Of a DNA stretch of 64,000 nucleotides, positions 11,565 to 54,635 are shown one piece after another. Position numbers and translations under genes: made by a program. Under the pieces are notes generated by a model, which was not told the DNA's origin, did not search any database, and saw nothing but the letters and a program-made list of their open reading frames with translations. Source of the DNA: Oceanobacillus sojae (GTDB taxonomy: Bacteria; Bacillota; Bacilli; Bacillales; Amphibacillaceae); contig NZ_LT727811.1 of assembly GCF_900162665.1 (NCBI RefSeq), forward strand, positions 128,063 through 192,062, in the 5' to 3' direction. Every line of letters starts with the position of its first letter. Positions within the stretch are counted from its first letter, which is position 1.

Positions 11565-11718
11565 CTCTTATCAAGAGCGGCGGAGGGAATAGGCCCTGTG
11601 AAGCCCGGCAACCTGAACAAAAACTGGTGCCAAATCCTACAGATTAATCTGAAAGATAAGAGAGAGTTCCAAGTCGACGACAAGAGCTCTCTTCTTAAAA
11701 GAAGAGAGCTCTTTTTTA
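11565..11718 (+). promoter_or_regulatory. SAM-I (S-box) riboswitch with terminator
   Basis: The S-box core is plain: P1 left arm CTCTTATCAAGAG, GGCGGAGGGAATAGGCCC, TGTGAAGCCCGGCAACC, GGTGCCAAATCC, and P1 right arm AGATAAGAG. The expression platform is a strong terminator with arms GAGCTCTCTTC / GAAGAGAGCTC and a T6 tail (11683-11718). High S-adenosylmethionine stops transcription before metY, 36 bp downstream. The order of conserved blocks matches the SAM-I family. Confidence 0.97.
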
Positions 11719-11753
11719 GTAACAGAAGGCATCTAAAAAAGGGAGGAAATAAA

Positions 11754-13415
11754 ATGTCAAATCATCCAGTCCAGCAAGATGAAACAATTTTATTACACGG
11801 AGGCCAGGTTCCTGACCCAACAACCGGATCCCGTGCCGTACCGATCTATCAAACTACTTCTTACGTATTCCGTGACACAGAGCATGCGCAAAACTTATTC
11901 GGGCTGGCAGAGCCTGGAAATATTTACACACGAATAATGAATCCAACTGTCGATACATTTGAACAGCGGATCGCCCAATTAGAAGATGGGGTCGGAGCTT
12001 TAGGTGTGGCATCAGGGATGGCAGCCATTACCATGGCCATTCTCAATATTACACGTGCCGGTGATGAAATTATTGCAGACAGCAATCTATATGGCGGCAC
12101 TTATAATTTATTTGCCAACACGCTCCCCCGCTATGGAATCGATGTGAAATTTGTAGACGGAACAGATCCAGAAGCAATTGAAGCTGCGATTACAGATAAA
12201 ACAAAAGCAATCTTCGGTGAAATCATTACAAATCCGAGCCTGTATGTTTTTGATGTGGAAACCGTTGCTGATATTGCTCATAATCATGGCATTCCTTTAA
12301 TTATTGATAATACATTTGCTACACCTTATGTTTCCAAACCATTAACATGGGGCGCAGATATCGTTGTGCATTCTGCAACGAAATGGATTGGCGGACACGG
12401 CACAACAATTGGCGGAGTTGTTGTCGACAGCGGCAGATTTGACTGGAACAATGAAAAATTTCCTGATTTTATCGAGCCGGATACAAGCTATAACGGCTTA
12501 AAATATGCTGACTTAGGCCCGGCTGCCTTTATTACAAAGCTGCGTGTCCAATTATTACGTGATATTGGACCTGCTCTAAGTCCGCAAAACGCTTTTTTAT
12601 TGCTTCAGGGATTGGAAACCTTACATTTACGCATCAAAAGACATAGTGAAAATGCAGAAAAACTGGCTGCCTATCTGAAAAAACACCCTGCTGTAGAATG
12701 GATCAACTACCCGGGGCTGCCATCACATCCATCTCACCAGCTTGCCCAGAAGTATTTAAAAGGCGGTTTTGGTTCTGTTATTACGTTTGGTATTGAAGGA
12801 GGCCGTGATGCCGGCCGTACCTTAATTGATAATGTAGAACTCTGGTCTCACGTTGCCAACGTCGGTGATGCAAAATCGCTTATTATCCATCCTGCTTCTA
12901 CAACTCATCAGCAATTAACAGATGAGGACCTGGCAAAAAGCGGTACGACAGAAGAATTAATTCGTCTGTCTGTTGGTTTAGAAGCATTTGATGATATCGT
13001 AGCTGATCTGGATCAGGCAATTGATAAAGCGACCGGAAAATCACAGGGCAATCAGAAATCTGCAGAGGAAACAGCGGTAACAAATCTGCTGCAATCTCCT
13101 TTTGACCGCAGTGAAGGTGTCCGTAAAAAACGTATTGTAGCTGTCGGCATTTCGGACGAGGATATTGCACCTCTATATAAATTAGGTTATGAGGTTATTC
13201 CTGCAACAGATATAGATGAGATAACAACAGACATACTAACCGGGGCGGATGCGATTTGGCTGCAAGAAGGAAAGCCGACACCGGAAGAAAATGCAGCTTA
13301 CCAGGGTACTATTTTGTTTACAGATGCAAGCCCTGATGTAACATCTGAAGTATTTATTCTTTCCAATATCCAGCCGGCAAAATTTGCTCTGGAATTACGC
13401 AGTTTCAGAAATTAA
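11754..13415 (+). CDS. metY: O-acetylhomoserine sulfhydrylase (MetY-type) with a C-terminal CoA-binding-like domain
   Basis: Residues 1-426 are a full-length PLP-dependent O-acetylhomoserine aminocarboxypropyltransferase, which makes homocysteine from O-acetylhomoserine and sulfide. Lys210 in [10 protein letters not shown] is the PLP lysine, with [10 protein letters not shown] before it and [14 protein letters not shown] near 375-388. Residues 427-553 are extra to the family's usual 425-435. They begin with a low-complexity linker and then read [45 protein letters not shown] and [11 protein letters not shown], which resembles a shortened CoA_binding_2-type Rossmann domain. GGGAGG precedes ATG 11754; the open frame runs further up into the riboswitch but that part is not translated sense. 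The S-box supports a role in methionine synthesis. Confidence 0.93.
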
Positions 13416-30232: not shown

Positions 30233-30358
30233 AAATATTGATTTGTTTCTATAATTATGCTAAAACTAACAAAGCAAGGTTAATTATTACAATATGAGTT
30301 CAAAAAGTAATCAAATTAGAAGCAAGAAGATCAAGGCGACATGGCTTTTCCGAACGGA

Positions 30359-30424
30359 CTTTCACAGGATGTGATGACTTCTGTGTTGTCCACAGGACGT
30401 GGACGCTCTTAGCAGAAGTTCCTC
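30359..30424 (+). repeat. Structured module X, copy in R2
   Basis: TCACA-GGA-TGTGA is the first hairpin. The second is ACTTCTG / CAGAAGT enclosing GTCCAC-AGGAC-GTGGAC, with TGTT and CTCTTAG unpaired between the stems. It ends TTCCTC. R1 and R4 lack it at the same site. Confidence 0.75.
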
Positions 30425-30446
30425 TATGCTTTCAAATACGTGAGTA

Positions 30447-30479
30447 ACGCTTTTGGTGGGGCGAGTAATCGCAGCCCCA
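30447..30479 (+). repeat. Structured module Y, copy in R2
   Basis: TGGGGC-GAGTAATCGCA-GCCCCA is a 6-bp stem with an 11-nt loop, preceded by ACGCTTTTGG. R1, R3 and R4 lack it. The same loop recurs at 54266-54288 on a changed stem. Confidence 0.7.
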
Positions 30480-30565
30480 TCGGAAAAGCCACGTCAACGC
30501 AGAGATTCGCCGCTTATCGTTTGAGGACTTTTTGAACATCCTCTTGTAGAAAGAAAGTGATAGCA

Positions 30566-33244: not shown

Positions 33245-33326
33245 TATCTTTTCTCCTTTTAGTACGCGTTCAAAAAGTCCGATAAATAGGACCAAGAAGT
33301 TCAAGGCGACTGATATTTTCCGAACG

Positions 33327-33393
33327 GACTTTCACAGGATGTGATGACTTCTGTGTTGTCCACAGGACGTGGACGTTCTTAACAGAAGTTCCT
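33327..33393 (+). repeat. Structured module X, first copy in R3
   Basis: Hairpin 1 is TCACA-GGA-TGTGA (33331-33343). Hairpin 2 has ACTTCTG (33346-33352) with CAGAAGT (33382-33388), enclosing GTCCAC-AGGAC-GTGGAC. It is nearly the same as the copy in R2 and stands at the equivalent site. Confidence 0.78.
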
Positions 33394-33436
33394 CTATGCT
33401 TTATAATACGTGAGTATCGGAAAATATCAGTCAACG

Positions 33437-33502
33437 CACTTCCGCAGGATGCGGTGGCTTCTACGTTGCCCACACGACGTGGGCGTTCTTAGTAGAAGAT
33501 CC
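33437..33502 (+). repeat. Structured module X, second copy in R3
   Basis: Hairpin 1 is CCGCA-GGA-TGCGG (33441-33453). Hairpin 2 has CTTCTA (33457-33462) with TAGAAG (33492-33497), enclosing GCCCAC-ACGAC-GTGGGC. Every stem has paired changes against the first copy, while GGA, CGTT, GAC and GTTCTTA stay. R1, R2 and R4 have no insert here. Confidence 0.78.
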
Positions 33503-33560
33503 TCTCATCGCCGTGTCATCTTTATTGAGCTTTTTGAACATCCTCTTTAAGAGAGGGTGT

Positions 33561-33983
33561 TTAAACACTCACTTTCAAGCTTTTCCCTAACCTAAGCATC
33601 CCCCACACCGAAAATCCATATACTATATGTCCTGACATCCAGATAACCCAGGCCCAAATATTATCTATTTCCGGTGTCCGGACAGATAATACCGTTGTCG
33701 GAAAAATAATCAGCCCGATTATGCTGCTGTAAAATAAATAAGGAATCAGCTTCTGCTCCAGTCTTTTCTTTTTTAACAGGAAATACAGAATCCATACCAC
33801 GACCGTTGAAACAAGCAGATGCAAGGAAAATTCGATCCAATCCGGCAAATACATACTGCCCAGCACAGGAAAATAATCGACATTCATCAGTAATGTGTAT
33901 ACTGAAATGTCTGTCCATTGCTGAAACACATATAAGAATCCTCCAAGCACGAACCCCGCCATTAAACCAGCCAGCAAAATCAT
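33561..33983 (-). CDS. Polytopic membrane protein of unknown function
   Basis: A 140-residue protein with four hydrophobic segments (about 1-22, 48-70, 78-100 and 112-132) and a short basic loop KKKRLEQK. I do not recognise a family. GGGAGG precedes ATG 33983, which is 16 bp after the MATE stop, so it is probably the second gene of the MATE operon. Repeat R3 begins just after its stop codon. Confidence 0.65.
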   Translation of the reverse strand: MILLAGLMAGFVLGGFLYVFQQWTDISVYTLLMNVDYFPVLGSMYLPDWIEFSLHLLVSTVVVWILYFLLKKKRLEQKLIPYLFYSSIIGLIIFPTTVLSVRTPEIDNIWAWVIWMSGHIVYGFSVWGMLRLGKSLKVSV

Positions 33984-54265: not shown

Positions 54266-54288
54266 TGGGACGAGTAATCGCAGTCCCA
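54266..54288 (+). repeat. Structured module Y, copy beside palindrome A
   Basis: TGGGAC-GAGTAATCGCA-GTCCCA has the same 11-nt loop as the copy in R2 (TGGGGC / GCCCCA), with one base pair changed on both arms. The preceding GACGGTTTTCGA also resembles the R2 flank. Confidence 0.7.
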
Positions 54289-54386
54289 GGAAGTCGCTTT
54301 CCACGGGCAACGCCTCAGCCTCCTCGGAAGAAGACCACTTCCTGCGGGGTCTTCACCTGTTGCTTTTCCCGTAGGAGTCGACTTCC
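54289..54386 (-). repeat. Palindromic repeat A (minus orientation)
   Basis: On the minus strand the outer stem GGAAGTCG / CGACTTCC is followed by unpaired ACTCCT and GGAAAG, then ACGGG / CCCGT, and inside GAAGACC / GGTCTTC with GAGGAGGCTGAGG. The blocks ACTCCT, GAGGAGGCTGAG and GGAAAGCG resemble a palindromic repeat that I recall as frequent in Bacillaceae genomes. Confidence 0.7.
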
Positions 54387-54459
54387 CTCCGCTTCCATCT
54401 AAGAAGAAATAAGTTTTATTTACTTTTTTATAAAGAAATAAAGCTAATTTTAGCGGAAG

Positions 54460-54635
54460 AAATACACGGAGACTCCTGTGGGAATGCGCAAAACGGAAAA
54501 GGAAGTTCGGTTAAGTTCGCGACGTCCTGTCGCAACACCGAACTGACATACATCCTGTATGCCTCCGCAGAAAAAAAGTGCTCTTCTTTTTTTCGAGGAG
54601 GCTGAGCTCAAGCCCACGGAAAGCGTAGTGTATTT
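54460..54635 (+). repeat. Palindromic repeat B (plus orientation) with module X inside
   Basis: The outer stem AAATACAC / GTGTATTT, unpaired ACTCCT and GGAAAG, and GTGGG / CCCAC repeat the plan of palindrome A with different stem bases. Inside are a module X on the minus strand (54505-54561) and a hairpin AGAAAAAAAG / CTTCTTTTTTT. With palindrome A it forms an inverted pair about 75 bp apart between convergent genes. Confidence 0.7.
54505..54561 (-). repeat. Structured module X, copy in palindrome B
   Basis: On the minus strand: CATACA-GGA-TGTATG, then GTTCGG / CCGAAC enclosing GCGAC-AGGAC-GTCGC, with TGTT and GAACTTAA unpaired. The loops match the R2 and R3 copies, while all three stems are different in sequence. 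Confidence 0.72.

Follow-up and report, generated by a model that had tools for sequence, protein, structure and literature searches.

Bacillaceae-1 double hairpins in Oceanobacillus sojae: probably a mobile cassette, which may act as folded DNA rather than RNA

What is the short structured unit that recurs within larger repeats in this part of the Oceanobacillus sojae genome, and does it work as RNA or as DNA? Within the window (the whole stretch of 64,000 nucleotides analysed here), the first-pass annotation had described four copies of a unit termed module X, and all four are present with the stems and loops it gave, three stems changing in pairs around fixed loops. It had also stated that it knew no named RNA or mobile element with such a pattern, which was wrong. 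The comparison with Rfam that it had proposed, naming a match to an already described family as the outcome that would speak against it, was run and assigned all four copies to RF01690, Bacillaceae-1, with 63.2 to 79.3 bits (E 3e-9 to 5e-13; the cut-off of the family is 35 bits) and with matches spanning the whole model (positions 1–67 of 67). The Rfam strand is minus for the copies in the composites R2 and R3 and plus for the copy in palindrome B. The strand read by the first-pass annotation is thus opposite to that of Rfam, yet it is the one preferred by a proposal of 2014 in which the family binds CsrA, as far as the passages of that paper show (PMC4333381).

Two copies lie in the R3 composite, at 33331–33398 (copy 1; minus strand, 67.9 bits) and 33441–33508 (copy 2; minus strand, 63.2 bits); copy 3 lies in R2 at 30361–30428 (minus strand, 64.5 bits), and copy 4 in palindrome B at 54495–54561 (plus strand, 79.3 bits), each recognised by the Rfam match together with its sequence. 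In copy 1, sequence and DNA folding together delimit hairpin A, TCACA GGA TGTGA, at 33332–33344 (arms TCACA/TGTGA, 33332–33336/33340–33344), followed by stem B, CTTCTG/CAGAAG, at 33348–33388 (arms 33348–33353/33383–33388), which encloses hairpin C, GTCCAC AGGAC GTGGAC, at 33358–33374 (arms 33358–33363/33369–33374). By the same evidence, copy 2 comprises hairpin A, CCGCA GGA TGCGG, at 33442–33454 (arms 33442–33446/33450–33454), and stem B, CTTCTA/TAGAAG, at 33458–33498 (arms 33458–33463/33493–33498), enclosing hairpin C, GCCCAC ACGAC GTGGGC, at 33468–33484 (arms 33468–33473/33479–33484); its stem C loop reads ACGAC, not AGGAC, so that GGA is kept in hairpin A only. When folded as DNA, three of the four window copies gave a double hairpin on either strand, with z values of -3.2 to -5.2. 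When folded as RNA, z values for three window copies were -2.3 to -3.7, and one of the six strands preferred another fold.

Bacillaceae-1 was described by Weinberg et al. in 2010, in a table that has a Y for it under RNA and an n under cis-regulatory, with Bacillaceae as the taxon (PMC2864571). According to passages of the 2014 paper, its discoverers were not confident of its strand, and the reverse complement was proposed there as a CsrA-binding sRNA (PMC4333381). Passages of a Bacillus subtilis atlas list eight copies that were missing from earlier annotation resources, including tiling-array predictions (PMC8208703). The family has therefore been in Rfam since 2010 and has a dedicated paper of 2022; it has no settled function, and its strand is unsure. 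That 2022 paper on the Bacillaceae-1 motif reportedly found either strand to be expressed in B. subtilis and two intergenic copies to be expressed on their own, and is said to have reported the association with rRNA clusters already. A description of Bacillaceae-1 as mobile DNA was not found among the titles, abstract openings and passages of the literature searched, although the full 2022 paper may say more, and mobility is absent from the passages seen of PMC2864571, PMC8208703, PMC9029176, PMC4333381 and PMC10440787. Module X does not differ from RF01690 in sequence; what differs is the reading, as mobile DNA here and as RNA in the 2010 table.

The module is abundant in its host and common among relatives. 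The O. sojae genome holds at least 56 matches at E <= 0.001, 55 of them above the family cut-off; this is a lower bound, as 150 of 548 first-look candidates were scored. In one entry from this genome, L039 (G000:C17:949500-952000), approximately 1.4 kb stand twice in the same orientation next to an N; this is probably a duplication made in assembly, and it would raise the count by one. What had looked like a gene flanked by two modules was set aside for the same reason. Searches with stricter filters, in which at most 32, 24 and 16 candidates were scored per genome, found the module in 109 of 147 genomes from the same GTDB family, in 102 of 199 sampled across the order and in 4 of 299 sampled across the phylum (three inside the order and one outside), the own genome being included each time. 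Five single-contig genomes carried at least 31, 33, 67, 94 and 53 copies when the best 150 candidates were scored in each. In one genome (G091, contig C1), 63 of the 70 copies listed run against the replication fork and 7 with it. A general replication-strand bias was rejected, since four other genomes had 30 copies against and 50 with the fork; these counts use the best 150 rows, with the origin placed from dnaA, the terminus assumed to lie opposite and the length of one genome (G066) rounded.

The fold itself was assessed on 58 loci from 58 other genomes, mostly the best match of each, with 17 pairs and thus 986 cells; loci L109–L117 were left out because they were gapped, truncated or duplicated or came from a genome already represented. 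Standard pairs occupied 965 of the 986 cells (97.9%, compared with 77.0 +/- 0.8% in shuffles), both-sided changes were seen at 15 of the 17 pairs, with double changes in 203 cells, and the covariation score was 0.543 against 0.148 +/- 0.011 when shuffled. None of 500 shuffles reached these pairing, double-change or covariation values, and sliding the structure along the alignment lowered pairing to 30–40%. A measure of further pair types was not above chance at these 58 loci, being reached by 54 of 500 shuffles. Many loop and linker positions were invariant across the 58 loci while the stems varied. Together, these results strongly support the conserved fold with fixed loops that the first-pass annotation had claimed. 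Its caution that correction of imperfect palindromes can keep arms complementary was apt as well: such correction may explain the perfect stems, but not the fixed loops.

The composition of the pairs bears on whether the folding molecule is RNA or DNA. On the Rfam strand, the 986 cells contained 961 Watson–Crick pairs, 4 GU, 13 AC or CA and 8 other combinations; 12 of the 13 AC cells sat in the two basal pairs of stem B, and without those pairs GU fell to 3 and AC to 1. As a control we used 30 SAM riboswitch loci from the same order, the sole RNA family so used, chosen like the module loci and with the structure predicted on their own alignment; these gave 31 GU, 7 AC and 133 double changes. 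Relative to double changes, GU was rarer in the module (Rfam strand) than in the riboswitch (Fisher p 2.5e-8), and GU against AC differed too (p 6e-5). On the reverse strand, the module had 13 GU and 4 AC, with 12 of the 13 GU in the two basal stem B pairs; GU against double changes, 13 to 203, again differed from the riboswitch (p 1.5e-4), and GU against AC showed no difference from it (p 0.72). The Fisher values serve as guides, the sequences being related and the cells not independent. In the own genome, 46 distinct rows gave 673 Watson–Crick, 5 GU, 10 AC and 20 other mismatched cells over 16 pairs, the own-genome model R1 holding 16 of the 17 pairs and missing one hairpin C pair. They come from a set of 53 rows, made up of one row each for 51 of the 56 places, a further weak match and a second row for one place (L003, the window copy at 54495), in which two rows derive from the likely assembly duplication.

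We consider that module X is best explained as a mobile DNA cassette acting as folded DNA rather than as RNA, a joint claim to which we give a probability of slightly more than one half (about 0.52). Taken alone, mobility is very probable, being well supported by the sharp edges of the module, its occurrence in both orientations at one 16S leader site, a naked insertion into a gene, the insertion of R3 and the presence of a second hairpin in its loops; action as folded DNA is favoured over RNA but not proven. The cassette would be a REP- or DHE-like unit of about 66–75 bp that is recognised as folded single-stranded DNA, exposed perhaps on the lagging-strand template or in an extruded cruciform. 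The single strand would form a pair of hairpins whose loops are near-identical (RTCCT, flanked C..G); stem sequence would be nearly free as long as it stays complementary, and, judging from conservation, recognition would fall on the loops and the linkers (AAGGA, TAAG, AAC and TGA). Copies may be pasted via template switching or a single-strand endonuclease, which we infer because no target duplication was seen and a few target bases were removed; patch repair of the folded strand, or template switching, would fit insertion with such small losses.

The site of R3 is informative in this respect. This composite, marked by the inverted repeats I2 and I6, is a 312-bp insertion at 33260–33571 that contains both modules, and it is missing at the corresponding site in six congeners, which read CTCCTTT there. 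Three of these congeners align with the window on both sides as far as the R3 junction; in the remaining three, the alignment on the right starts 14 to 23 nt beyond it. CTTT stands on each side of R3 and is single in the empty sites, which could be chance, and the inverted repeats TTCAAAAAGT/ACTTTTTGAA sit 8 and 32 nt inside the ends. Because the site is empty in six congeners, R3 arrived by insertion in this lineage with the two modules inside it, and the module reached this place in the window as its passenger.

The module can also be found inserted by itself. In one genome (G013), it disrupts a gene encoding an Rpn-family nuclease / putative transposase (TIGR01784, E 4e-50; PF12784), the one documented case of a naked insertion into a gene. 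Compared with a paralog in the same genome, 73 nt of the interrupted copy replace 15 nt, without target duplication; over 677 nt to the left the two copies differ at 4 positions, and over 200 nt to the right at 4 more, three of the latter lying within 18 nt of the junction, and the reading frame stops shortly after the insertion. Since the gene is uninterrupted in three further relatives as well (L333, L328 and L331), the module represents a gain and not a loss. The 18 loci of G013 and G076 that were compared included no exact donor. Approximately 0.7 kb from the insertion, the interrupted gene has an N and a repeated stretch in its 5′ part, possibly marking a join made in assembly.

Ribosomal RNA operons are recurrent sites. 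In genome G188, the module stands directly before the 16S gene in three of eight leaders, on the rRNA strand, and in its congener G282 it occupies the corresponding place on the opposite strand in one of the seven leaders counted, an eighth with a partial match being left out. The remaining operons of both genomes have other short spacers instead. As in the nuclease gene, other bases stand in the place of the module at these leader sites where it is missing. Further modules lie before 16S in G185 (L111), after 16S in the own genome (L001), before 5S at L073, L230 and L231, and after 5S at L063; at L058, one is fused to a partial 5S. At the last locus (L058:1286-1820), a complete 5S rRNA gene is adjoined by the partial one; a module takes the place of the 5′ part of the latter and is followed by another module.

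The borders of the module are sharp and its surroundings are diverse. In the flanks of the 58 aligned loci, information did not exceed 0.3 bit from -60 to -1 and past +6, with 6 nt downstream shared, roughly CCYGAG. No common promoter or terminator was found within 60 nt of the flanks of these loci, and on this ground a small-RNA gene with its own promoter was rejected. The module is housed in at least four unrelated carrier repeats. One type, TTCAAAAAGT...ACTTTTTGAA, comprises R3, a carrier in G028 and R2, the last a composite at 30298–30537 with one module and the repeats D1, I1 and I4; the module was present or absent at two sites of this carrier, with a few other bases when absent (by eye). 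Palindrome B, a different carrier repeat at 54295–54625 (inverted repeat I1) that holds copy 4, has related carriers in G263. A third type, GCGCAAGCGCC...GGCGCTGGAGC, occurs in G091 and G232, with a carrier in G177 similar by eye, and a fourth, CCCCACTGA...GGCCCGA, at L002 and L055. In G091, 18 of 20 fetched copies lay in the GCGCAAGCGCC-type carrier. At L165 and L166, both in G263, the left side of the module joins a tandem repeat array where the usual carrier half is replaced, and the break falls at about the left border of the module. The carrier stems of R3 (33308–33323/33417–33432) and R2 (30338–30360/30473–30495) differ, GACTGATATTTTCCGA against GACATGGCTTTTCCGA, yet within each carrier the two arms remain closely complementary, as though one had served as the template for the other.

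Gene orientation was examined with genes predicted crudely by ORF length. At 56 loci in other genomes, both neighbour genes lay on the module strand in 17 cases and both on the other strand in 20; 12 modules lay between convergent and 3 between divergent genes, and 4 were unassigned. The own genome leaned 17 to 5 among 30 loci (p 0.017), a count in which several loci are two modules of one composite, and the total over all sets examined was 43 to 35.

Among the alternatives, the one that survives best, although we hold it to be unlikely, is that the module is a structured RNA, as in Rfam, or a reverse-strand RNA whose two GGA loops sequester CsrA, as proposed in 2014, and that it was spread by mobile carriers. 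The Rfam type 'Gene; sRNA' and the covariation of stems around constant loops agree with it, as do the copies in rRNA spacers on the rRNA strand and the reverse-strand ratio of GU to AC, 13 to 4, which resembles that of the SAM riboswitch. GGA, read on the reverse strand, occurs in both hairpin loops of 38 of the 58 copies and in at least one loop of 57, but it is missing from one loop in 19 and from both in 1, and on sequence grounds these counts would neither prove nor exclude a CsrA-binding RNA. An RNA-level reading is thus possible but not favoured, because wobble pairs are scarce relative to double changes on either strand, because the module occurs in opposite orientations at one rRNA leader site and because it inserted naked into a gene; the lack of a common promoter or terminator within 60 nt and the absence of the eight B. 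subtilis copies from earlier annotations, as passages of PMC8208703 give it, also count against it. Conversely, several points weigh against the folded-DNA reading: scarce wobble can also stem from palindrome correction, whatever the molecule does; GU exceeds AC on the reverse strand as in the riboswitch; the own genome has its orientation lean of 17 to 5; GGA is retained in at least one loop of nearly all 58 copies; and the 2022 paper reportedly saw expression of either strand.

Movement through an RNA intermediate is improbable; a reverse transcriptase, whether encoded by the host or by another element, would then copy the module back into DNA, and RNA structure and DNA insertion would both matter. 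The documented insertion lacks a target duplication, the reason for which such a route has been suggested for the Allomyces elements in the passages of PMC2800124, and transcribed rRNA operons are recurrent sites; the scarcity of GU pairs speaks against it. We regard as quite doubtful the notion that structure is under no selection at all, imperfect palindromes being corrected by template switching and copies spreading only as passengers of carriers. In its favour, the stems are nearly perfect, with few mismatched intermediates, template switching has been proposed to maintain RNA hairpins (passages of PMC8794818), and the carrier stems of R2 and R3 (I4 and I6) also differ yet stay complementary. 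Template switching alone can keep stems nearly perfect, but it leaves unexplained why many loop and linker positions stay the same across 58 loci with variable stems. Against it also stand the naked insertion, which involved no carrier, and the borders, which are sharp across unrelated carriers. Finally, a REP-like element moved by a RAYT, or Y1 HUH tyrosine transposase, is scarcely credible: the hairpins are small and the copy number high, and PF01797 occurs in 90 of the 109 genomes with the module and in 21 of the 38 without it (p 0.002). However, 19 of the 109 have no PF01797 match, so that Y1 is dispensable in the present state of these genomes, and a module lay in the examined stretch of only 1 of 30 Y1 loci. 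No mobilising enzyme emerged from the Y1 linkage or from the ORFs between the two modules of L089, which, read by eye, included no transposase-like one.

As a mobile cassette, module X resembles several known systems in part. Double-hairpin elements of Allomyces mitochondria were reportedly described by Paquin, Laforest and Lang in 2000. In the passages seen of PMC2800124 and PMC7218506, these are likewise small mobile units with two hairpins (by name), without target duplication and with presence/absence variation between close relatives; the module differs in residing in bacterial chromosomes and in having loops that are constant across an order while stems vary. It shares with them two hairpins, mobility and the lack of a duplication, the last from one insertion, so the likeness is one of behaviour only. 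Like REP sequences and the GTAG and CGTC palindromes, it is a short high-copy palindromic repeat, some copies lying within genes, and like the CGTC repeats it seems to have no dedicated transposase; in the passages of the source, neither the GTAG nor the CGTC type is given for Firmicutes (PMC3733652). Unlike REP, the module has two different hairpins with common loops and no linked RAYT, and a GTAG or CGTC tag is absent from its palindrome foot: its edges are AAGGA and CCY, and CGTC occurs only at the hairpin C loop. A target site duplication, as used to define MITEs, was not found at the G013 gene. Pneumococcal BOX and RUP, in passages of PMC3049150, are composite repeats, and the number of copies of a sub-module varies among them as it does between R2 and R3; module X differs in occurring in several unrelated carriers and also alone. 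CsrA-binding sRNAs, as presented in passages of PMC4333381, have GGA in hairpin loops, as the module does on its reverse strand in both loops of 38 of 58 copies, whereas one loop of the module lacks GGA in a third of the copies (19/58), and its spread and insertion are like those of mobile DNA. Bhal-1 of B. halodurans, a structured intergenic repeat of 74 bp with 36 copies (passages of PMC2267715), is similar in size and, compared by description only, may be the same element.

We put forward more tentatively, and with the odds against it, that Bacillaceae-1 represents a class of bacterial double-hairpin DNA element without its own transposase that copies a folded single strand, in which the loops would be live joints in the DNA, and that other repeated 'structured RNA' families are perhaps misfiled DNA, which covariation with few wobble pairs would then reveal. 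Nested hairpins and modular carriers would then grow by insertion of other mini-hairpins into loops. If module X is indeed mobile DNA, the annotation of many Bacillaceae genomes should change, wobble-poor covariation would offer a practical way to tell folded DNA and folded RNA apart, and the mitochondrial double-hairpin elements would have a bacterial counterpart. The natural empty sites in rRNA operons, in one nuclease gene and at R3 allow the mechanism to be tested. Should the CsrA proposal prove true instead, the module would be a mobile element that sequesters a global regulator, which would be of interest too.

A mini-hairpin, Y, accompanies the module and has entered its loops. It is a dispersed hairpin of approximately 34 bp, GGGNN TGCGATTACTC NNCCC with a ACCGAAAACATT-like tail, and also adjoins copies of itself. 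In the window, its core (GGGGC TGCGATTACTC GCCCC) lies in the R2 carrier at 30458–30478 (minus strand; G000:C16:158520-158540) and beside palindrome B at 54267–54287 (minus strand; G000:C16:182329-182349). With up to 2 mismatches allowed, a search of the genome found the core 72 times (46 exact, 26 near) and a reversed control 0 times. Y lies inside 9 of the 53 own-genome module rows (one place twice), always at RTCC^T in the loop of hairpin C, and in the loop of hairpin A at two more places (L264 and L287). The Y-bearing modules belong to at least two module lineages and carry different Y variants; copying of whole composites may explain part of the nine rows. Elsewhere in the window, a SAM riboswitch (RF00162, 86.4 bits) at 11565–11662 overlaps the mechanical start of the ORF at 11598–13415.
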